Shown here one piece after another: positions 2,883 to 30,445 of a DNA stretch of 36,486 nt (within the stretch, counting starts at the first letter, position 1; the number at the start of each line of letters is the position of its first letter). Position numbers and translations under genes: made by a program. The stretch comes from Gammaproteobacteria bacterium (GTDB lineage: Bacteria > Pseudomonadota > Gammaproteobacteria > Arenicellales > CAJQKF01): NCBI GenBank assembly GCA_030429665.1, contig JAUIEZ010000038.1, forward strand, positions 1 to 36,486, written 5' to 3'. The notes under the pieces are model-generated. The model was not told the DNA's origin. It made no database searches and saw only the letters and a list, made by a program, of their open reading frames with translations.

Positions 2883-4400
2883 CTATTGCAGCTCGCTGAC
2901 GTCGGTGGAGTCGAGTTCGGAGGCCGACTGCACGCCCGCGCGGGCGCCGCGTACGGTCTCGATACGCTCGAGGTATTCCGGCGAGACGTCGCCGGTGATG
3001 TAGTGTCCGCTGAAGCACGACGCGTCGAAGGCGTCGATGCGCGGGTTGCCTTCGCGCACGGCTTCCTCGAGATCGCCCAATTCCTGGTAGAACACCCTGT
3101 CGGCGCCGATCTGGCCGCGAATCTGCTCGGTGTCCCGACCGCTGCCTACCAGTTCGGCGGTGGTGGGCATGTCGATTCCGTAGACGTTTGGGAATCGTAC
3201 CGGCGGCGCGGCCGATGCGAAATAGACTCTCTTGGCACCCGCATCGCGGGCCATCTGTATGATCTGTTGAGACGTGGTACCGCGCACGATGCTGTCGTCG
3301 ACCAGCAGCACGTTCTTCCCGCGAAACTCGAGATCAATCACGTTGAGCTTCTGGCGCACCGATTTCCTTCGCTGGGCTTGTCCCGGCATGATGAAGGTGC
3401 GCCCGATATAGCGGTTCTTGATAAACCCCTCGCGGTACTTCAGACCCAGCTCCCACGCCATCTGCAGGGCCGACGTGCGGCTGGTGTCCGGCACCGGGAT
3501 GACCACGTCGATGTCGTTGTCCGGCCAGTCCTGCTTCAGCCGCCGACCGAGCTTTTCGCCCATCCGCATGCGTGTCTTGTAGACAGCCACGTCGTCCATG
3601 ATCGAATCGGGCCGCGCCAGGTAGACATACTCGAACAGGCAAGGCGCGAGCTTCGGGTCGTCCGCGCAGACCCTTGTGTGCACCTTGCCGTCGACGCCGA
3701 ACAGCACCGCTTCGCCCGGCGCGACGTCGCGCACCAGCTCGTAGCCAAGCACGTCGAGCGCGACACTTTCCGACGCGAACATGCGCGAATCACCGCCGCT
3801 CTCCTCGCGCTGGCCGAAAACCAGCGGTCGTATACCGAACGGGTCACGAAACGCCAGGATGCCGTAGCCGACGATCAGCACCACGACCGCGTAGGCGCCT
3901 CGACAGCGCCGGTACACGCCGCGCACGGCGTTGAAGATGTCGTCGGGCGTGGCGCGAAGCCGTGCTTCGCCCACCGCGGCGTAGAGCTCGTGGGCGAACA
4001 CGTTGAGCAGGATCTCGGAGTCGGAGTTTGTGTTGATCTGCCGAAGATCCTCGCGAAACAGCGCGTCGCTCAATTCGCGCGTATTGGTCAGGTTGCCGTT
4101 GTGTCCCAGCGCGAGGCCGAAGGGGGAGTTGACGTAGAAGGGCTGGGCCTCGGCGCGGGAATCGCACCCGGCGGTGGGATAACGCACATGGCCGATGCCC
4201 ATGGTTCCCATCAGCTGCAGCATGTGACGAGTGTGAAACACGTCCCGCACCAGGCCGTTGTCCTTGCGCAGGTATACCCGGTTGCCGTCGCAAGTCAGGA
4301 TGCCGGCGGCGTCCTGGCCGCGATGCTGGAGCACGGTCAGACCGTCGTAGAGCTCCTGGTTAACCGGGTTCGATCCGATGATTCCGATGATTCCGCACAT
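2883..4400 (-). CDS. purF: Amidophosphoribosyltransferase
   Basis: PurF makes 5-phosphoribosylamine from PRPP and glutamine, the committed first step of de novo purine synthesis. The protein has 505 residues, the standard length for the Gram-negative type. It starts MCGIIGIIG, so Cys2 becomes the N-terminal nucleophile of the class II glutaminase domain after Met removal. The phosphoribosyltransferase half shows the PRPP loop [14 protein letters not shown] at about residues 365-380. No cysteine-rich 4Fe-4S C-terminus of the Bacillus type is seen. The start lies 1 base beyond the cvpA stop, so it is the last gene of the minus-strand dedD-cvpA-purF run, as in E. coli. Confidence 0.97.
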
Positions 4401-4401
4401 A

Positions 4402-4956
4402 TCAGTTTTCCGTACCGGTGCCGGTTACACTGTCCGGCAATGTTTCCAGTGGCCGAAGAAAATCCCGGTTGTCCAGGTACTCGTAGACCGGCTCGAAGTA
4501 AGGCACCAGCAGCGAGCCCTGGAACCATGGCTTTGCCGTGGCCGGCGTCAAGCGGATCACGAAGACCAGCGCCAGCGATATGGCAAGCCCTCGCACCAGG
4601 CCGAACAACGCGCCCAGCGTCCGGTCGGTCCCCGCCACGCCCACGTAATTCAGCACCTTGACCAGGATCATCGCCGTCATGGACAGGAGCAACAGGCTGA
4701 CGACGAAAATGCCCGCCAGCGCGACCATGTACTGAATCTCCGGGGATTGCAAGTACGGCGCCAGGTAGGCGGCGACCTGGTCGGCATAGTGCAACGCCAG
4801 CCAGATGGAAACGATCCACGAAACGAGCGCCAGCACTTCGCGGATCAGGCCTCGCACGATGCCCACCACCGCGGAGATCACGAACACCGCGAGCAACACG
4901 TAGTCGAGCGCTGTCAGTGCGACGTTCAGGCGCCGACACCCCTGGCAAGGCGACAC
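4402..4956 (-). CDS. cvpA: Colicin V production protein family membrane protein
   Basis: CvpA is a small inner-membrane protein, nearly always next to purF, needed for colicin V export in E. coli and linked to envelope homeostasis; its molecular role is unsettled. The translation shows four hydrophobic helices: [17 protein letters not shown], the [17 protein letters not shown] region, [20 protein letters not shown] and [17 protein letters not shown]. The family motif [15 protein letters not shown] is present. The only standard start in frame is a GTG that adds an unusual 11-residue Cys-rich lead. Family homology begins about there, and a CTG at 4929 preceded by CAGGGG is a possible alternative start. 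It sits between dedD and purF in the conserved order. Confidence 0.9.
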
Positions 4957-4980
4957 GTCGCGCCCGCCACGGCCGCGCCG

Positions 4981-5706
4981 CTACCGTTCTCGATCGACGA
5001 ATCCATTGAGATCGTAGCCCTTCGAAATCTCGGACTTGGCCCGTACCGCCGACTTGCGGTCGGGGTACGGACCCACCCACACCCGGACCATGGCCTTGCC
5101 GTTCACGGTGATGGATTCGCTCGACGGCGCGTAGCCGCCTTCCCTGAGTCGTCGGCTGATGCCGTCGGCATTGGCCTTGTCGCTGAACGCCCCGACGCGC
5201 ACGATCCACGATTCGTCGGCCTTTGGCGCTTCGCGCTGTGCCGGTCGAGTCGGCACGGAAGCCACGGCGGGTTCCTCCGCCGGCCCATCCGCCTTGACGG
5301 TGTTGATGCGGGGCACCGGCTTGGGCAGGCTGGTGGCGGGCTCCAGGACGGGATTCATATCCAGCGCGGGCGGTGGCGCGACCGCCTCGGGCACGGCTAC
5401 CCTCGCAACTTCGCTTGCGTCCGGCTTGCTTTCATCGGGCAGCACCTGGGACGGCGCGGATTCGGCGACGAGCGGTTCCACGGGCGCCGAGGCGGGAGAC
5501 GGTGCGCGCGTCTCGCCCGACTCCGCCCCCACGATGCGCGAGACGAACGTGCTCTCCTCGGGCGCGGACGCAGGCTGCGCGGACTTCCCGGCGTCTCCCG
5601 GATCGAGCAACAGGGAGACCGCCGCGACCGCGGCGCCGATGAGTATGACCGCGCCGGTCAGCCGATGCTTCAGGTTCAGGGGTTGGTCGCTGGCCGTGGG
5701 GGGCAT
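4981..5706 (-). CDS. dedD: SPOR-domain membrane protein, DedD-like
   Basis: DedD is an inner-membrane protein whose periplasmic SPOR domain binds denuded peptidoglycan at the division septum. The 241-residue product has a short cytoplasmic lead (MPPTASDQPLNLKHRLTG), one transmembrane helix at about residues 16-35 (TGAVILIGAAVAAVSLLLD), a long Pro/Ala/Glu-rich linker, and a C-terminal SPOR domain from about 165 (WIVRVGAFSDKANADGISRR through VRVWVGPYPDR). Gene order folC-dedD-cvpA-purF matches the classical E. coli arrangement. The folC stop is 24 bases upstream and the cvpA start about 25 bases downstream. Confidence 0.93.
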   Translation of the reverse strand: MPPTASDQPLNLKHRLTGAVILIGAAVAAVSLLLDPGDAGKSAQPASAPEESTFVSRIVGAESGETRAPSPASAPVEPLVAESAPSQVLPDESKPDASEVARVAVPEAVAPPPALDMNPVLEPATSLPKPVPRINTVKADGPAEEPAVASVPTRPAQREAPKADESWIVRVGAFSDKANADGISRRLREGGYAPSSESITVNGKAMVRVWVGPYPDRKSAVRAKSEISKGYDLNGFVDRER

Positions 5707-22752: not shown

Positions 22753-22779
22753 TTGTCACACGCCTCGATGGGATATAAT
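22753..22779 (+). promoter_or_regulatory. Promoter for metG-rnfB-nth
   Basis: A perfect -10 TATAAT (22774-22779) is preceded by TTGTCA (22753-22758), five of six matches, with a short 15-base spacer. Transcription would begin near 22786, about 33 bases before the metG ATG. Confidence 0.55.
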
Positions 22780-22818
22780 TTTAGGAGTTTATTGCGGAAA
22801 TTTCAGCCCGACCCCTCG

Positions 22819-24852
22819 ATGTCCGACTCCAAGCGAAAAATCCTCGTCACCAGCGCCCTGCCCTACGCCAACGGGCCGATCCACATAGGCCACCTGCTGG
22901 AGTACATCCAGACGGATATCTGGGTGCGCTTCCAGCGCCTGCGCGGCCACGAGATCTACTACGTCTGCGCAGACGACGCCCATGGCACACCGATCATGCT
23001 CAAGGCCAAGGCCGAGGGCATCACCCCGGAAGCGCTGATCGAGCGTTTCAGCGCCGAGCACCGCCGCGATTTCGACGATTTCTCGATCAGCTTCGACAAC
23101 TACTACACCACCCATTCACCGGAGAATCGCGCGCTCGCGGAGTTCATCTTCGGCCGGCTCGACGCCGGCGGACACATCAAGAAGCGGGTGATCAGCCAGG
23201 CCTTCGATCCGGTGGAAGGCATTTTCCTGCCCGACCGTTTCATCAAGGGCGAGTGCCCACGGTGCGGCGCGCCGGACCAATACGGCGACAGCTGCGAGGT
23301 ATGCGGCGCGACCTACAGCCCGGCCGACCTGGTCAATCCGCGTTCGGCGATTTCCGGCGCCACGCCGGTCGAAAAGGAAACCGAGCATTATTTCGTATCG
23401 CTCGGCAACTTCACCGACATGTTGCGCGAGTGGACGGCCGGTGGCCACGTCCAGGAGGAAGTTCAGAACAAGCTCAGGGAGTGGTTTGACACCGGACTGC
23501 GAGACTGGGACATTTCCCGCGACGCGCCCTACTTCGGATTCGCCATTCCCGGCGAGAGCAACAAGTATTTCTACGTTTGGCTGGACGCGCCGATCGGCTA
23601 CTTCGCCAGCTTCCGCAACCTGTGCGACCGCGAGGGGATCGATTTCGACGCCTTCTGCCAGGCCGGATCGAGCGCGGAGATGTACCACTTCATCGGCAAG
23701 GACATTCTATACTTTCACACCCTTTTCTGGCCGGCGATGCTTCACGGCGCCGGATTCCGCCGCCCCAGCGCGGTATGGGCTCACGGCTTTTTGACCGTCA
23801 ACGGCCAGAAGATGTCCAAGTCACGCGGTACGTTCATCAGCGCCCGAGCCTACCTGGACCACCTGGCGCCGGACTACCTGCGCTACTACTTCGCCGCCAA
23901 GCTGAACCATCGCGTCGAGGATCTCGATCTCAACCTGGAAGACTTCCAGCAGCGGGTCAATTCGGACCTCGTTGGCAAGGTGGTGAACATCGCCGCCCGC
24001 TGCGCGGGATTCGTGAACAAGCGATTCGACAATCGCCTGGGCGCTACGCTGGACGACCCCGCGCTGCTCGACGCATTCGTGGCCGAATCGGAGAATATTG
24101 CCGCATTCTTCGAGGCGCGGCAGTTCAGTCGTGCCATTCGCGCCATCATCGAGCTGGCCGACCGCGCCAACCAATACGTCAACGACCGCGCGCCGTGGGT
24201 GGTTGCGAAGCGCGAAGGCGCCGATGACGAACTGCTGCGCATTTGCACCCAGGGTCTCAACCTGTTTCGGGTGCTGATGATCTACCTGGCGCCGGTGGTT
24301 CCCGACCTCGCCGGCCGGGTGTCGACGTTTCTGTGCTCGCCGGTCGACGCGCGCGAGGCCTGGGCCCGCGTCGGCGAGCCGTTGCTCGACCACCGAATCG
24401 GCAAGTTCACCCACCTGTTGAAACGCGTCGAACCGGGCCAGGTCGACGCCATGATCTCGGCCTCGAGAGAACCGGGCCCGACGGCGAACCCCTCACAAGA
24501 GACGAAGATGAGCGAGAAAAAAGACGACACCATCGACATCGACACCTTTGCCCGCGTCGACCTTCGCGTCGCGCGCATCGTCGAGGCCAGCCTGGTGGAT
24601 GGAGCCGACAAGCTCCTGCAGCTGACCCTGGACACGGGCGGCGAGCGCCGAAACGTGTTCGCCGGTATACGCGCCGCCTACGATCCCGCCGAACTGGTTG
24701 GCCGACTGACGGTCGTGGTCGCGAACCTGGCGCCGCGAAAAATGCGCTTCGGCGTTTCCGAGGGCATGGTCCTGGCCGCGGGGCCGGGCGGCAAGGATAT
24801 ATTTCTGTTGTCGCCCGACGATGGCGCCGAGCCCGGCATGCGGGTCAAGTGA
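22819..24852 (+). CDS. metG: Methionyl-tRNA synthetase with C-terminal tRNA-binding domain
   Basis: MetG charges tRNA-Met for initiation and elongation. The 677-residue protein has the class I HIGH motif (HIGH, residues 22-25), the zinc knuckle with [19 protein letters not shown] at about 145-165, and KMSKS at 331-335. The alpha-helical anticodon domain follows, then a C-terminal OB-fold EMAP/Trbp111-type tRNA-binding domain from about residue 575 ([17 protein letters not shown]), which drives dimerisation. The ATG was chosen because homology begins [23 protein letters not shown] nine codons earlier (22792) has AGGAG closely upstream but lies almost on the predicted transcript start. The stop overlaps the next gene (GTGA). 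Confidence 0.97.
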
Positions 24853-25490
24853 CCGACATCGAGTCCATCGACCAGTGGCTGCCGCAAACCCAGTGTACGC
24901 GTTGCGGCTACCCGGACTGCCGCGCCTATGCGGCGGCCGTGGCCGGTGGCGAGGCGGGGATCGACCGATGCCCGCCCGGCGGCCGCTCGACGCTGGGCGG
25001 CCTGGCGACGCTGCTCGGCGTCGACGAACCCGCGGGACTCGCCGAGGACGTCGAACCGTTTGAGGGCTTTGCGACGGCGCGCATCCGCGAGCATGAATGC
25101 ATCGGCTGCACCAAGTGCATCGAGGCTTGCCCGGTGGACGCCATTATCGGCAGCGGTAAGAAAATGCACACGGTGATCGAGTCCGACTGCACGGGCTGCG
25201 AGTTGTGCCTGCCGCCGTGCCCGGTGGACTGCATCGACCTGGCGACACCGCGAACGCCGTTTGCGCCGTCGCGGGCATGGCCGGCCTTTCCCGCCGGCGC
25301 GGCCGCGCGATATCGCGCGGCCCGAGAGCGTCGCCGCGGCCGCGAGCGGCGAAACACGTCGACGACGCCTGTTCGGAAGGAATCCGACCACCTCGCGGGA
25401 GCGGCCCGCGAGGTCGAAGCCGAGATTCGGCAGCGCGTTCTCGACGCCGTGGCGCGAAGTCGCGCGCGTCGGCGACAGGCGAATCCGTAA
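24849..25490 (+). CDS. RnfB-like soluble iron-sulfur protein, stand-alone
   Basis: The 213-residue product matches the cluster-binding part of RnfB/RsxB. Seen: the RnfB 4Fe-4S motif with Cys 16, 19, 24 and 41 ([14 protein letters not shown]), then two ferredoxin CxxCxxCxxxCP motifs at 84-94 and 114-124. The C-terminal 80 residues are Arg/Ala-rich and probably helical. The N-terminal transmembrane helix of membrane-bound RnfB is missing, and rnfA, C, D, G and E are absent from the window. It starts at GTG overlapping the metG stop and is followed by nth after 11 bases, echoing the rsx-nth linkage of E. coli. Likely a soluble electron carrier; its partner is unknown. I give no rnfB symbol because a complete Rnf complex cannot be inferred. 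Confidence 0.85.
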
Positions 25491-25501: not shown

Positions 25502-26131
25502 ATGGAACAGAGAAAGATCAACCTGGTATTCCGCCGTCTCGCAAAGGCGATACCCGAGCCGGCCACCGAGCTTGACTACAAGACGCCATTCGAGCTGCTG
25601 GTCGCGGTAACGCTGTCCGCCCAAGCGACGGACGTATCGGTCAACAAGGCGACCGCGTCGTTGTTCAAGGTGGCTCGCACGCCCGAGGCCATCCTCGAAC
25701 TGGGCGTCGAAGGATTGATCCCGCATATTCGGACCATCGGATTGTTTAACAGCAAGGCCCGGCATATCGTGGCCGCGAGCCGCATACTGGTGGAACGTCA
25801 CGGCGGCCGCGTGCCGGACAATCGCGCCGACCTCGAGGCGTTGCCCGGGGTCGGGCGCAAGACGGCCAACGTGATTCTCAACACGGCGTTCGGCCAACCC
25901 ACCATCGCCGTGGACACGCATATATTCCGCGTCGGCAACCGTACCGGCATCGCGCCGGGCAAGACACCGCTCGCGGTGGAACGCGCCTTGCTGGAGTGCG
26001 TGCCGAAGAAATATCTCAAGGATGCCCACCATCTCCTGATTCTCCACGGACGTTACACGTGCAAGGCGCAGAGGCCATCGTGCGCGGAATGCTGTATCGT
26101 CGACCTGTGCGAGTTCGACGCCAAGCGCTGA
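25502..26131 (+). CDS. nth: Endonuclease III
   Basis: Nth removes oxidised pyrimidines from DNA and cuts the abasic site (bifunctional glycosylase/lyase). The 209-residue protein aligns with E. coli numbering at the helix-hairpin-helix LPGVGRKTANVIL, catalytic Lys120 and Asp138 (AVDTHIFRV). The C-terminal 4Fe-4S loop has the C-x6-C-x2-C-x5-C spacing (CKAQRPSCAECCIVDLC). It is the last gene of the metG-rnfB-like-nth group, 126 bases before the bufferin-type cluster. Confidence 0.97.
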   Translation: MEQRKINLVFRRLAKAIPEPATELDYKTPFELLVAVTLSAQATDVSVNKATASLFKVARTPEAILELGVEGLIPHIRTIGLFNSKARHIVAASRILVERHGGRVPDNRADLEALPGVGRKTANVILNTAFGQPTIAVDTHIFRVGNRTGIAPGKTPLAVERALLECVPKKYLKDAHHLLILHGRYTCKAQRPSCAECCIVDLCEFDAKR

Positions 26132-26202
26132 TGCGACCCGGGCGGGTTCGAAACTTTTCGCCCGACGTGCAGTCATATGCGACAGGCAACACGCCAATGC
26201 CC

Positions 26203-26221
26203 CCGGCGCCACGGGCGCCGG
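26203..26221 (+). other. GC hairpin in the leader of the DUF2282 gene
   Basis: A perfect eight-base inverted repeat (CCGGCGCC / GGCGCCGG, loop ACG) ends 25 bases before the strong Shine-Dalgarno of the bufferin-like gene. It has no T-run. It could stop read-through from nth, protect the 5' end of the mRNA, or be a regulatory site. No convincing sigma70 promoter is visible in this gap. Related operons are under ECF sigma factors in some bacteria, so a non-sigma70 promoter is possible. Confidence 0.4.
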
Positions 26222-26246
26222 ACACGACCTTCCGACCCCTACGAAT

Positions 26247-26252
26247 AAGGAG
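26247..26252 (+). promoter_or_regulatory. Very strong ribosome binding site
   Basis: AAGGAG (within TAAGGAG) sits five bases before the ATG of the DUF2282 gene. Few other genes in the window have such a match, which fits a precursor peptide made in large amounts. Confidence 0.7.
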
Positions 26253-26257
26253 TTCTC

Positions 26258-26518
26258 ATGAAAAACCCGAAGCTTGCCGTATCGACCGCCGTGTCCGGGC
26301 TGATCGCCCTGGGCCTTGCCTCGACCCCGCTGACCGCGAGCGCCGCGGACAGCGAGAAATGCTACGGCGTCGCCAAGGCCGGCAAGAACGACTGCCAGAC
26401 CAACACCAGTGCCTGCGCGGGGACCTCGACGGAAGACGGCCAGGGCGACGCCTGGTTGTTCGTGCCCGCGGGGCTATGCGAAAAACTCGTCGGCGGCAGC
26501 CTCGAGTCCAAGGCCTGA
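26258..26518 (+). CDS. bufA: Bufferin-like DUF2282 precursor peptide
   Basis: The 86-residue product has a Sec signal peptide (MKNPKLAVSTAVSGLIALGL, cleavage expected after ASA near residue 29). The short mature region has four cysteines at 35, 46, 53 and 74 (EKCYGVAKAGKNDC, ACAG, GLCEKLVGG). These and the DGQGDAW motif are hallmarks of the DUF2282 family. Family knowledge: such peptides (bufferins, or gold-induced Gig proteins) are RiPPs in which a DUF692/DUF2063 enzyme pair modifies cysteines so that the exported peptide can bind copper or similar metals. The enzyme pair follows immediately. The symbol is given by family and operon pattern. The metal bound here is unknown. Confidence 0.88.
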   Translation: MKNPKLAVSTAVSGLIALGLASTPLTASAADSEKCYGVAKAGKNDCQTNTSACAGTSTEDGQGDAWLFVPAGLCEKLVGGSLESKA

Positions 26519-26525
26519 TCCGACC

Positions 26526-27389
26526 TTGTCGTCGCGAGACGCCATCGCGAATCCGATCCCGGCAGATGCCGGGATCGGTCTTCGCGGAGATCACTACCGG
26601 CGCGTGGACGCCGAGCGCCCAAACGTGGCGTTTCTCGAAGTCCACAGCGAGAACTATTTCGGCCGGGGCGGCGTACCCCACTACTACCTCGAGCGACTGG
26701 GTACCCGCTATCCGTTGAGCTTTCACGGGGTCGGCCTGTCGCTGGGTTCCACGGACCCGCTCGACGAGAATCACCTGGACCGGCTTCGCGAGCTCGAGCA
26801 AGCCTATCGGCCCGCCCTCGTCTCGGAACACCTGTCATGGAGCTCGGTGGGAGGTGTTTTCACCAACGACCTGCTGCCGTTGCCGCTGACGCTCGAGAGC
26901 CTCGATCACTTCAGTCGCCGCGTGGATCACGTTCAGTCTCGCCTGGGTCGCCGGCTGCTCGTCGAGAACCCGTCGACCTATCTCGAACTGACCGATTCGC
27001 GGATCGACGAGACCGAATTCCTCAACACCCTCGCCGCTCGCACCGGTTGCGGCATCCTGCTCGACGTGAACAACGTCTTCGTTTGCGCGACCAACCACGA
27101 CTTCGACGCCAATGCCTACATTGAAGCGATCGACGCCGATTCGGTGGCCGAGATCCATCTCGCCGGCCACGTGGAAAACCGCTTCGACGGCGGCACCATA
27201 CTTATCGACAGTCACAACCGCCCGGTCTGTGACGCGGTGTGGAAACTGTATCGTCACGCCCTGGCGTACGTCGGCCCGCGCCCCACGCTGGTCGAGTGGG
27301 ACAGCGACCTGCCGGCGCTAGACGAATTGCTGGACCACGCCGCGCATGCCCGTGCCTTGCTGGAAGAACACCGTGCCGTCGCTGCGTGA
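26526..27389 (+). CDS. bufB: DUF692 multinuclear non-heme iron oxidase (MNIO), bufferin-modifying
   Basis: The TIM-barrel DUF692 protein of about 287 residues belongs to the MNIO family, iron enzymes that rewrite cysteines in RiPP precursors. Likely metal ligands are seen in order: FLEVHSENYF, LSFHGVGLSLG, LVSEHLSWSS, LLVENPSTYLE, GILLDVNNVFV, EIHLAGH, LIDSHNRPV and LVEWDSDLP, all typical of DUF692. The start is inferred as TTG seven bases after the bufA stop. It is the only standard start codon between the bufA stop and the first family motif (GIGLRGDHYRR); the longer open frame runs back through bufA. Low start strength may keep enzyme levels below the precursor's. Confidence 0.92.
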   Translation: MSSRDAIANPIPADAGIGLRGDHYRRVDAERPNVAFLEVHSENYFGRGGVPHYYLERLGTRYPLSFHGVGLSLGSTDPLDENHLDRLRELEQAYRPALVSEHLSWSSVGGVFTNDLLPLPLTLESLDHFSRRVDHVQSRLGRRLLVENPSTYLELTDSRIDETEFLNTLAARTGCGILLDVNNVFVCATNHDFDANAYIEAIDADSVAEIHLAGHVENRFDGGTILIDSHNRPVCDAVWKLYRHALAYVGPRPTLVEWDSDLPALDELLDHAAHARALLEEHRAVAA

Positions 27390-28161
27390 GTTCCAGACGC
27401 GGTTCGTCACCTCGCTGTTCGACGACGACCCGCCCGGCGAGGAACTGGCGATGGGCATCCAGGAGAACGGTTTGTCCGCAACGCGCCGCCTGGCCATCTA
27501 CCGCAACAACCTGCTCGCCAGCCTGACGGAATCCCTGGGAGATACCTACCCGGCTATTCGGGCCCTCGTCGGCGACGACTTTTTTCGCATGCTGGCGCGA
27601 CGCTACGTGCGCAAACATCCGTCTCGAAGTGGCGACCTTCATGCCTTCGGCGAGCAATTCGAGTCATTCCTCGCCGGCGTCGATGAGGCCGCCTCGCTTC
27701 CGTGGATTTCCGACCTGGCGCGACTGGAATGGCTGTATCACCTGGTGTTCCACGCCGCCGAGGAGACGCCGCTCGACGTGGCTGCTCTGGCGTGCATTGA
27801 AGAGTCCGACCACGACCGCGTGGTACTGCGCCTTCATCCCGCGTCGGCATTGACCTGGTCTCGATTTCCATTGACGGACATCTGGCGGTTGGGCATACAC
27901 GGCGACGAAGGCTCGGCCACCGTGGATCTCGATGCCGGCCCGGCGTACGTACTGATAGCCCGGCGCAAGCTCGAGATGACGTTCCAGTCGTTGCTGCCTG
28001 CCGAGTATGCATTCGTGGAGGCGATGACCGCGGGTCGGGCATTGGTCGATTGCGCCGCGGCGGCTTTCGAGGTCGACGGCGAATTCGCGCTCGGCGCGTT
28101 TCTCGGGCGCCAGTTCGCGCTGGGCAACATCACCGGCGCCGAACTCGCCGATCGCGATTGA
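27373..28161 (+). CDS. bufC: DUF2063 partner protein of the MNIO enzyme
   Basis: The 262-residue product (start GTG, MPSLREFQTRFVTSLFDD) is a DUF2063/HvfC-type protein: an N-terminal helical domain with the family stretch RLAIYRNNLLASLTESLGDT and YPAIRALVGDDFFRMLARRY, then a C-terminal domain. In characterised RiPP pathways this partner binds the precursor leader and delivers it to the DUF692 enzyme. The chosen GTG lies inside the end of bufB (17-base overlap), so the two are coupled. An ATG nine codons earlier is in frame but lies deeper in bufB. Confidence 0.9.
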   Translation: MPSLREFQTRFVTSLFDDDPPGEELAMGIQENGLSATRRLAIYRNNLLASLTESLGDTYPAIRALVGDDFFRMLARRYVRKHPSRSGDLHAFGEQFESFLAGVDEAASLPWISDLARLEWLYHLVFHAAEETPLDVAALACIEESDHDRVVLRLHPASALTWSRFPLTDIWRLGIHGDEGSATVDLDAGPAYVLIARRKLEMTFQSLLPAEYAFVEAMTAGRALVDCAAAAFEVDGEFALGAFLGRQFALGNITGAELADRD

Positions 28162-28213
28162 TCCAGCGCCCGGGACCGCCATTCGCAACAACTACCGCCA
28201 CGAGGACCCGACC

Positions 28214-28636
28214 ATGATCCGCTCCCTCATTCGATTGCTGGAAATTCTCGCCCCCGTCGCCGACCTGTTGTTGCGCTGCTGGGTCGCCTGGGTGTTTCTG
28301 AAGTCGGGAATTAACAAGTATGAGTCCATGGACACCACGCTGCTGTTGTTCCAGCACGAGTACTCGGTGCCCGTTCTGCCACCCGATATCGCCGCCTATG
28401 TCGCCACCGCCGTGGAACTCGTATTCCCGGTGTTGCTCGCCATTGGCCTGGCGGGACGGTTCTCGGCCGGCGTGCTGTTCTTTTTCAACATCGCGGCGGT
28501 CATATCATACCCGGGACTGAACCCGGCCGGGCTGCAGCAGCACCTGTTGTGGGGCATCATGCTGCTCGTACCGTTCCTGCATGGACCGGGCAAACTCTCC
28601 ATCGACCACGTGTTTCGCCTGCGCGCCGGTATCTGA
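28214..28636 (+). CDS. DoxX family membrane protein
   Basis: This 140-residue protein has four predicted membrane helices (APVADLLLRCWVAWVFLKSG, YVATAVELVFPVLLAIGLAG, FSAGVLFFFNIAAVISY and LLWGIMLLVPFL). The DoxX signature is present: RCWVAWVFLKSGINKY and, at the end, HGPGKLSIDHVFR. DoxX-like proteins regularly accompany DUF2282/DUF692/DUF2063 genes; they are thought to act in redox or quinone-linked membrane processes, but the role in bufferin operons is not settled. It lies 52 bases after bufC and 12 before the radical SAM gene. Confidence 0.9.
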   Translation: MIRSLIRLLEILAPVADLLLRCWVAWVFLKSGINKYESMDTTLLLFQHEYSVPVLPPDIAAYVATAVELVFPVLLAIGLAGRFSAGVLFFFNIAAVISYPGLNPAGLQQHLLWGIMLLVPFLHGPGKLSIDHVFRLRAGI

Positions 28637-28648
28637 GGCTGCCATTCA

Positions 28649-29650
28649 ATGAAAGACCCATCACCTGTCACTGTCTCGCCGCCGACCCGTGCCGCGCTTT
28701 CGTTCACGGCGGCGTTACGCCGCCACGGCCTCGAACCGCTTCGGCGCGCGCCGCTGTCGACGCTGCAAGTCAACCTGGGACGACTGTGCAACCAGGCCTG
28801 CGAGCACTGTCACGTGGATGCGGGACCCAAGCGCACCGAGATCATGAGCAGGACCATCATGGATCGCATCGTGCGGTGGTGTGGCGACAACGGCATTTCC
28901 GACGTCGACATCACCGGTGGCGCGCCCGAGATGAACCCCGGTTTTCGCGGTTTCGTCGATCGGCTGCTCGACACCGGGGCCGCGGTAGGCGTGCGATGCA
29001 ACCTGACCATCCTGCTGGAATCGGGTTATGAGGACCTTGCCGATTGGTACGCCCGGCGCCATATCCACCTGACCTGCTCGCTGCCCTGCTATAGCCGGGA
29101 GAACGTCGACGGTCAGCGCGGCAAGGGAGTTTTCGATCGCAGCATCGAGGCGCTGAAACGGCTCAACGCGGCCGGCTACGGGAAGGACCCCGCGCTCGTT
29201 CTCGACCTCGTGTACAACCCGGGCGGCGCGTTCCTGCCGCCACCCCAGGCGGCACTGGAGCAAGAATACAAACGCGAGCTCGCCGGCCGTTTCGGCATTG
29301 TCTTCAATCGCCTGCTGGCGCTGGCCAACCTGCCCATCAACCGATTCGAACGATTCTTGCGCAACAACCGCCAGCTCGAGTCGTACCAGGACATGCTGAT
29401 CGATGCATTCAACCCGGAAACCGTGTCCGCGCTGATGTGCCGCCACATGGTCAGCGTGGACTGGCTGGGCAACGTCTACGACTGCGATTTCAACCAGATG
29501 CTGGACATGCCGTTGGTCGAGGAAGGCCGGCGGGCGAAGCTCTGGGAACTGGCGCGACAGGACTTCGAGAACCGGTCCATCGCGGTCAACCGCCATTGCT
29601 TCGGCTGCACGGCCGGCGCGGGAAGCAGTTGCGGCGGCAGCCTGTCGTAG
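28649..29650 (+). CDS. ArsS-like radical SAM/Cys-rich protein
   Basis: The 333-residue protein has the radical SAM CxxxCxxC cluster motif at C47, C51 and C54 (LCNQACEHCHVDAGP), the VDITGGAPEMN SAM-binding stretch, and a DUF3641-type C-terminal domain. That domain ends in a Cys-rich tail with C317, C320 and C328 (CFGCTAGAGSSCGGS). This is the architecture of ArsS (radical SAM/Cys-rich family), which in arsenosugar synthesis attaches a 5'-deoxyadenosyl group to arsenic. No arsM or other arsenic gene is in the window. Here it follows doxX by 12 bases and so appears to be the fifth gene of the bufferin operon. Function could be arsenic chemistry or modification of the DUF2282 peptide; the sequence does not decide. 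Confidence 0.88.
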   Translation: MKDPSPVTVSPPTRAALSFTAALRRHGLEPLRRAPLSTLQVNLGRLCNQACEHCHVDAGPKRTEIMSRTIMDRIVRWCGDNGISDVDITGGAPEMNPGFRGFVDRLLDTGAAVGVRCNLTILLESGYEDLADWYARRHIHLTCSLPCYSRENVDGQRGKGVFDRSIEALKRLNAAGYGKDPALVLDLVYNPGGAFLPPPQAALEQEYKRELAGRFGIVFNRLLALANLPINRFERFLRNNRQLESYQDMLIDAFNPETVSALMCRHMVSVDWLGNVYDCDFNQMLDMPLVEEGRRAKLWELARQDFENRSIAVNRHCFGCTAGAGSSCGGSLS

Positions 29651-29686
29651 CCTTCGGCACGGTCGACGCTGGGTCGGTTCGTGCAG

Positions 29687-30445
29687 TCAACGGGATTCCT
29701 GTCCCCGCTGCCGAAGCGCCTCGTACAGCATTACGCCGGCAGCCACGGAGACATTGAGACTTTCCACGCTTCCTTTCATGGGAATGCGTGCGAGGAAATC
29801 GCAGCGCCTGCGCGTCAACTCGCGCAGCCCGCCGCCTTCGGCGCCCAGCACCAGCGCCACGGGGCCCGTCAGATCGCACTGAAATACGCTTTGGGAGGCA
29901 TCGTCGGCGGCACCCGTGATCCACACCCCGCGTTCCTGCAGCATCTGCATGGTACGTTCCAGGTTCGTTACCGTAAAGAACGGCACGCTGTGCGCCGCGC
30001 CCGCTGCAACGCGCGAGACGACCGGCGTAATACCGCAGGCACGGTCGCGCGGCACCACGACGGCGTCGACACCGGCTGCGTCGGCGGTACGCAGGCAGGC
30101 GCCCAGGTTGTGGGGATCCTGGACGCCGTCGAGAACGAGCAGCAGCGGCTCGTGCGCCAGGTTCTCGAGGAACGACTCCAGGGTCACCGGCGCCGGCGCC
30201 TCGATGCGTGCGCAACTCGCCAGCACGCCCTGGTGGCGAAGACCGGCGGCTCGTCGGTCGAGCTCCGCCCTGGGCAGTCGGGTGACGGTCACGCCGCGTT
30301 CGGCGGCGAGCGCCGCGATCTCGGCAACCCGCTTGTCGTCGCGGCGCTGGTCGACGAACAACTCGACGACGCCTTGCTCGCGCTTCTTCAGCGCCAGCCT
30401 GACGTCGTGCAGGCCGCCGATCAGTGAGGTTTTACCTTTTTCCAC
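29687..30445 (-). CDS. rlmB: 23S rRNA (guanosine-2'-O-)-methyltransferase
   Basis: RlmB methylates the 2'-O of G2251 in the 23S rRNA P-loop. The SPOUT protein of about 252 residues has the N-terminal substrate-binding domain (GGLHDVRLALKKREQG) and the knotted catalytic domain. Motifs are LLLVLDGVQDPHNLGACLRT, VALVLGAEGGGLRELTRRRC and IPMKGSVESLNVSVAAGVML. Start uncertain: GTG at 30445 overlaps rnr by 25 bases. CTG at 30424 overlaps the rnr stop as CTGA, has an AAAGG upstream, and matches best where homologues begin. The long open frame further upstream runs inside rnr and is not real. rnr-rlmB order matches E. coli. Confidence 0.93.
   Translation of the reverse strand: MEKGKTSLIGGLHDVRLALKKREQGVVELFVDQRRDDKRVAEIAALAAERGVTVTRLPRAELDRRAAGLRHQGVLASCARIEAPAPVTLESFLENLAHEPLLLVLDGVQDPHNLGACLRTADAAGVDAVVVPRDRACGITPVVSRVAAGAAHSVPFFTVTNLERTMQMLQERGVWITGAADDASQSVFQCDLTGPVALVLGAEGGGLRELTRRRCDFLARIPMKGSVESLNVSVAAGVMLYEALRQRGQESR

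Follow-up and report, generated by a model that had tools for sequence, protein, structure and literature searches.

A Buf1-type bufferin operon upstream of a probable arsenosugar-type arsS gene at a conserved gammaproteobacterial locus

Contig JAUIEZ010000038.1 of a Gammaproteobacteria bacterium (assembly GCA_030429665.1, order Arenicellales), analyzed here over its whole length of 36,486 nucleotides (nt) and called the window below, carries five closely spaced plus-strand genes in the order bufA-bufB-bufC-doxX-arsS. The first four correspond to a Buf1-type bufferin operon, and the last encodes a radical S-adenosylmethionine (SAM) protein of the ArsS family. We consider it probable that the bufferin operon lies upstream of a separate, vertically inherited arsS of the arsenosugar type and that the chemistries of the two are distinct. 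The gene content, the conserved order, the synteny with and without bufferin genes, the ArsS phylogeny, the co-occurrence with glycosyltransferases and the absence of arsM, which bear on this reading in different directions, were all observed directly.

In the arrangement that we favor, bufABC-doxX would give rise to a Sec-exported peptide whose cysteines are converted by BufB and BufC into copper-binding 5-thiooxazoles, the modification that MNIO-PME1 pairs install on cysteine (PMC12668002, PMC12452194). ArsS enzymes use radical SAM chemistry to adenosylate arsenic (Cheng et al. 2021, as cited in PMC12159101), and the ArsS of the window would transfer a 5'-deoxyadenosyl radical to a trivalent arsenical that is already methylated, and that may be scavenged or made by an unrecognized methyltransferase. 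Its product would feed TIGR04283/TIGR04282 glycosyltransferases encoded elsewhere in the genome. The Buf1 operon lies between nth and an arsS that is native to the locus, and transcription through arsS is probable; ArsS would not act on the bufferin, and the two chemistries would stay separate while probably sharing one transcript.

The nth locus and the history of arsS

Profile searches for ArsS and MNIO proteins covered 60 genomes, nearly all of the window's order, and ArsS was above cut-off in 47 of them. In 22 of these 47 ArsS genomes of the order, spread over five families, bufC, doxX and arsS are contiguous on the same strand, and the full five-gene order is seen wherever the contig reaches far enough; two genomes of another order (G169 and G285) share it. 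The spacing between doxX and arsS, 12 nt in the window, ranges from -4 to 84 nt with a median of 21 (25 loci, one genome counted twice). The bufferin-arsS adjacency that the original prediction had read in a single genome is therefore conserved and not due to chance, since the identical order is found in 24 genomes including the window's. At this locus, conserved order says little about a shared pathway, as metG, rnfB and nth keep their places too and are functionally unrelated to arsS.

The same position is occupied by arsS where bufferin genes are lacking. In 19 genomes of the order without bufferin genes at the locus, arsS follows nth, nth-FIST or DUF1841, mostly within the metG-rnfB-nth block that in the window ends 126 nt before bufA, and one locus (L182) holds the complete series metG-rnfB-nth-FIST-DUF1841-bufABC-doxX-arsS. 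Outside the window's order, as judged by their labels, three loci (L075, L076 and L160) have metG-rnfB-nth-FIST-DUF1841-...-doxX-arsS with no bufABC set, and genes of the arsenosugar-associated glycosyltransferases TIGR04282 and TIGR04283 converge on the other side of arsS; in L076 the stretch between also holds a divergently oriented MNIO gene and a DoxX of greater length. The bufferin genes were either inserted at an old nth-arsS site, or were ancestral and lost in several families; arsS outlives them either way.

A tree of 152 ArsS proteins groups every nth-locus sequence in one 51-row clade (SH-aLRT 95), within which bufferin-linked and unlinked proteins are interleaved, with 7 label changes between them. 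ArsS therefore followed the locus and not the bufferin genes, and the tree rules out a bufferin-specific ArsS subfamily. The BufB tree places the buf-linked BufB proteins of the window's order together and those of the second order elsewhere, which suggests independent buf-arsS origins in the two orders, yet a single clade remains compatible with the data (p-AU 0.40). Resolution is poor in the doxX tree. As a separate observation, doxX adjoins arsS without bufABC in L075 and L160, where it may act together with arsS or may be what is left of a bufferin operon since lost.

Probable arsenosugar-type partners and the absence of a recognizable ArsM

The window's ArsS scores 434.8 bits against TIGR04167 (cut-off 300) and carries CxxxCxxC (C47, C51, C54) together with the C-terminal HCFGCTAGAGSSCGG; the radical-SAM and C-terminal cysteine motifs are alike in bufferin-linked and other ArsS proteins. 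A TIGR04283 glycosyltransferase is above cut-off in 38 of 39 genomes with ArsS as against 3 of 32 without it, irrespective of bufferin genes (Fisher p = 2e-15, a value that overstates independence as the genomes are related). Of the three exceptions, two come from close relatives whose assemblies may lack arsS. In the window's genome, a TIGR04283-TIGR04282 pair lies on contig C99 (L195, ~4123-5450), where the former scores 228.8 bits against a cut-off of 182 and the next open reading frame (ORF) is of the TIGR04282 type by sequence similarity only.

The system thus resembles the arsenosugar pathway of Synechocystis ArsM/ArsS in its TIGR04167 assignment, in the same cysteine motifs and in the glycosyltransferases of its genome. 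It is unlike that pathway in having no arsM in the genome, in the position of arsS behind a bufferin operon and unlinked from the glycosyltransferase genes, and in Cys143 where canonical ArsS has Ala. Adjacency alone would mislead pathway prediction in this case; synteny and co-occurrence place arsS in an arsenosugar-type pathway.

Several observations weigh against our reading. First, the TIGR04283 gene of the window's genome contains one in-frame TGA and is intact in relatives, the TGA marking either a pseudogene or a sequencing error. Second, the lack of arsM, noted earlier for the locus alone, extends to the genome: the best NF008823 match is a generic methyltransferase at 65 bits (cut-off 263), and a second, independent ArsM query returned nothing at E<=1e-10; the assembly is ~93% complete, and both queries speak against an ArsM elsewhere in it. 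Likewise, 15 of the 21 five-gene genomes tested yielded no ArsM relative, the closed genomes G026 and G031 among them, and the usual source of dimethylarsinite is therefore missing. Finally, the short doxX-arsS gaps across two orders, taken alone, suggest one functional unit.

The absence of ArsM does not point to the bufferin, because several ArsS genomes without bufferin genes (G039, G044, G053 and G059) also gave no ArsM relative. ArsS and TIGR04283 are both present in these four genomes and in the single-contig G026 and G031. With a lineage that has ArsS and the glycosyltransferase, and no ArsM even in closed genomes, the source of methylated arsenic becomes a testable question.

Alternative explanations for the adjacency

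We evaluated whether the five genes could instead form a joint metal and metalloid stress operon, in which ArsS keeps its arsenic chemistry and is retained for beneficial co-induction by copper (gold, arsenite), selection acting on co-expression and not on shared chemistry. Such an operon would be in line with the order and short gaps that recur across five families (22 genomes) and in another order (two genomes), and with the higher frequency of MNIO genes in ArsS-positive than in ArsS-negative genomes of the window's order (32/47 versus 3/13, p = 0.009, uncorrected for kinship); a further proximity of arsS to bufABC-doxX, with bufA 3 kb away, in G127 would also fit. However, the block includes metG, rnfB and nth without any plausible functional link, which makes the conserved order a weak argument, and 19 genomes retain arsS there with no bufferin genes. 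In a class-wide survey of 321 genomes, ArsS is above cut-off in 156 and DUF2282 precursors occur in 85, and about 42 genomes hold both Buf1 and ArsS (tallied by hand from the tables); among the matches with listed positions, the two lie together only in the window's genome (G000), G169 and G285, and loosely in G127, and Buf1 loci mostly lack arsS. On balance, we regard a joint stress operon as unlikely. The G127 locus (L169), from another family, has a separate arsS with bufA-bufB-bufC-doxX 3 kb downstream on the same strand.

Conceivably, the ArsS enzymes of the nth locus have moved from dimethylarsinite to a different substrate, either another arsenical or another small molecule, and unrelated to the bufferin. 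Such a change would account for arsM being absent from many of these genomes, whether or not they carry bufferin genes. It would also fit residue 143, which lies in CSLPCY in nearly all nth-locus ArsS proteins and mostly in ASLPCY in those linked to arsM or glycosyltransferase genes. Against such a shift, all radical-SAM and C-terminal cysteines are kept and TIGR04283 is found in nearly all of these genomes, and we consider it distinctly improbable. Cys143 is in itself a possible extra cysteine close to the active site.

We give still less credence to the idea that the thiooxazole peptide receives a radical-made (for example adenosyl-derived) group from ArsS, or that it presents an arsenical for ArsS to adenosylate. 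Were ArsS and the bufferin to interact in this manner, the result would be a combined copper/arsenic pathway for a ribosomally synthesized and post-translationally modified peptide (RiPP), without need for ArsM.

The original prediction had proposed, as one possibility, that the bufferin peptide is modified a second time by ArsS. Adjacency and short gaps speak for it, as do the failure to find arsM in most five-gene genomes and the ability of radical SAM enzymes to form peptide thio(seleno)oxazoles (Lewis et al. 2021, as cited in PMC12668002). The window resembles the radical-SAM/MNIO RiPP clusters of the chryseobasin type, and the thio(seleno)oxazole maturase SbtM, in having a Cys-rich RiPP system with a radical SAM gene nearby; it is unlike them in that its radical SAM protein is an ArsS orthologue that persists without RiPP genes. 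Pfam and NCBIfam models matched only Radical_SAM and DUF3641 in this protein, with no SPASM or RRE domain; peptide-maturase family models scored far below cut-off, and its relatives in the PDB are remote radical SAM enzymes only.

When 23 arsS-linked BufA proteins were aligned with 26 unlinked ones, the four-Cys columns were identical in both sets, and neither an added cysteine nor an obvious site appeared in the linked set as a candidate mark of a second modification. Several columns (e.g., K6, Q30 and D32) are invariant in the linked and variable in the unlinked proteins, and unlinked relatives share these residues, a pattern that, as far as an alignment can tell, is consistent with closer kinship of the linked set. 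The alignment lowers the likelihood of a second modification, although modification of a residue common to both sets would still fit. Since ArsS orthologues persist at the same locus without bufferins and interleave with the linked ones in the tree, follow TIGR04283 and not the bufferins, and score as ArsS but weakly as any peptide maturase, while most bufferin operons lack arsS and the linked precursors show no obvious additional site, we regard the proposal as highly improbable.

The bufferin operon and a predicted hairpin in bufB

Family identities were assigned with Pfam and NCBIfam profile models, and the order, strand and spacing of ORFs were read from the window, which is the whole of contig C24 in a 5.0-Mb, 245-contig assembly that is ~93% complete. 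The ORFs and models bear out the five-gene order described earlier as well as the assignment of bufABC-doxX to the bufferin (gig-type) set, with matching models for DUF2282, BufB, DUF2063 and DoxX (Table 1). The bufA product has a Sec signal peptide, judged by eye, and four cysteines that all lie in the mature part, and arsS-linked relatives carry the same Buf1-type precursor. BufB passes its dedicated model NF050167 (376.9 bits, cut-off 310), and its gene likely starts with TTG; the 5' end of bufC overlaps bufB, and its match to NF050145 is weak.

Table 1. Annotated features of the window around the bufferin operon and arsS
Feature	Position	Strand	Description
bufA	26258..26518	+	DUF2282 (Buf1-type) bufferin precursor, 86 amino acids; PF10048, 84.5 bits
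bufB	~26526..27389	+	MNIO/DUF692 maturase; PF05114 (MbnB_TglH_ChrH), 344 bits
Predicted mRNA hairpin	26545..26588, core stem 26553-26563/26568-26578	+	Inside the 5' end of bufB; synonymous covariation
bufC	27346..28161	+	DUF2063 partner, PME type 1 like; PF09836, 89.9 bits
doxX	28214..28636	+	DoxX membrane protein; PF07681, 64 bits
arsS	28649..29650	+	Radical SAM (43 bits) and DUF3641 (PF12345, 185 bits), ArsS family
metG	22753..24852	+	First gene of the conserved block around arsS, with and without bufferin genes in relatives
rnfB-like	24849..25490	+	Ferredoxin-type; same metG-rnfB-nth block; start approximate
nth	25502..26131	+	Endonuclease III; block gene; start approximate

The set resembles the Buf1/gig-type ('captophorin') operons of Caulobacter, Cupriavidus and Legionella, which combine a DUF2282 precursor (Sec signal, four Cys) with BufB, BufC and DoxX (PMC12452194, PMC5413113). 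It is unlike them in being followed by arsS, in having no adjoining extracytoplasmic function (ECF) sigma factor/NrsF gene, and in lying within a metG-rnfB-nth housekeeping block. In the papers searched, no report describes such a five-gene bufferin-arsS arrangement, which is conserved in several families; the MNIO survey in PMC12452194 does not mention arsenic and records additional conserved genes in extremely low proportions only. A consensus scan of positions 25900-29900, which is uninformative for other promoter types, found no promoter-like site; together with the little room that the 12-nt gap leaves, this speaks against a promoter of its own for arsS or a terminator after doxX. Rfam gave no match for the operon.

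At the start of bufB, the core of a strong predicted mRNA hairpin (26553-26578) spans the codons for PIPADAGIG. Buf1-type operons carry the hairpin whether or not they include arsS, and none of the BufA2-type loci examined has it. Across 37 loci in register, 96 of the 111 stem pairs that join two third codon positions are Watson-Crick, and a null that shuffles synonymous codons among sequences, ignoring their relatedness, gives 66.4 +/- 3.2 and reached 96 in 0 of 5000 shuffles. This covariation through compensatory synonymous changes shows RNA-level constraint on the predicted structure, which may set the ratio of precursor to enzyme or act in mRNA processing. The hairpin matches no Rfam family, and PMC12452194 nowhere refers to a hairpin, a stem-loop, attenuation or a terminator; the structure offers a regulatory lead on how precursor and enzyme might be kept in balance in Buf1 operons.

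Further MNIO genes were seen outside the window. In the same genome, a second MNIO gene is seemingly split over the ends of contigs C233 (L196, 1-2200) and C85 (L197, 1-615) and adjoins a DUF2063 partner and an MsrP-like oxidoreductase, and another genome of the same genus (G001) has a BufA2-type precursor with an MNIO gene.

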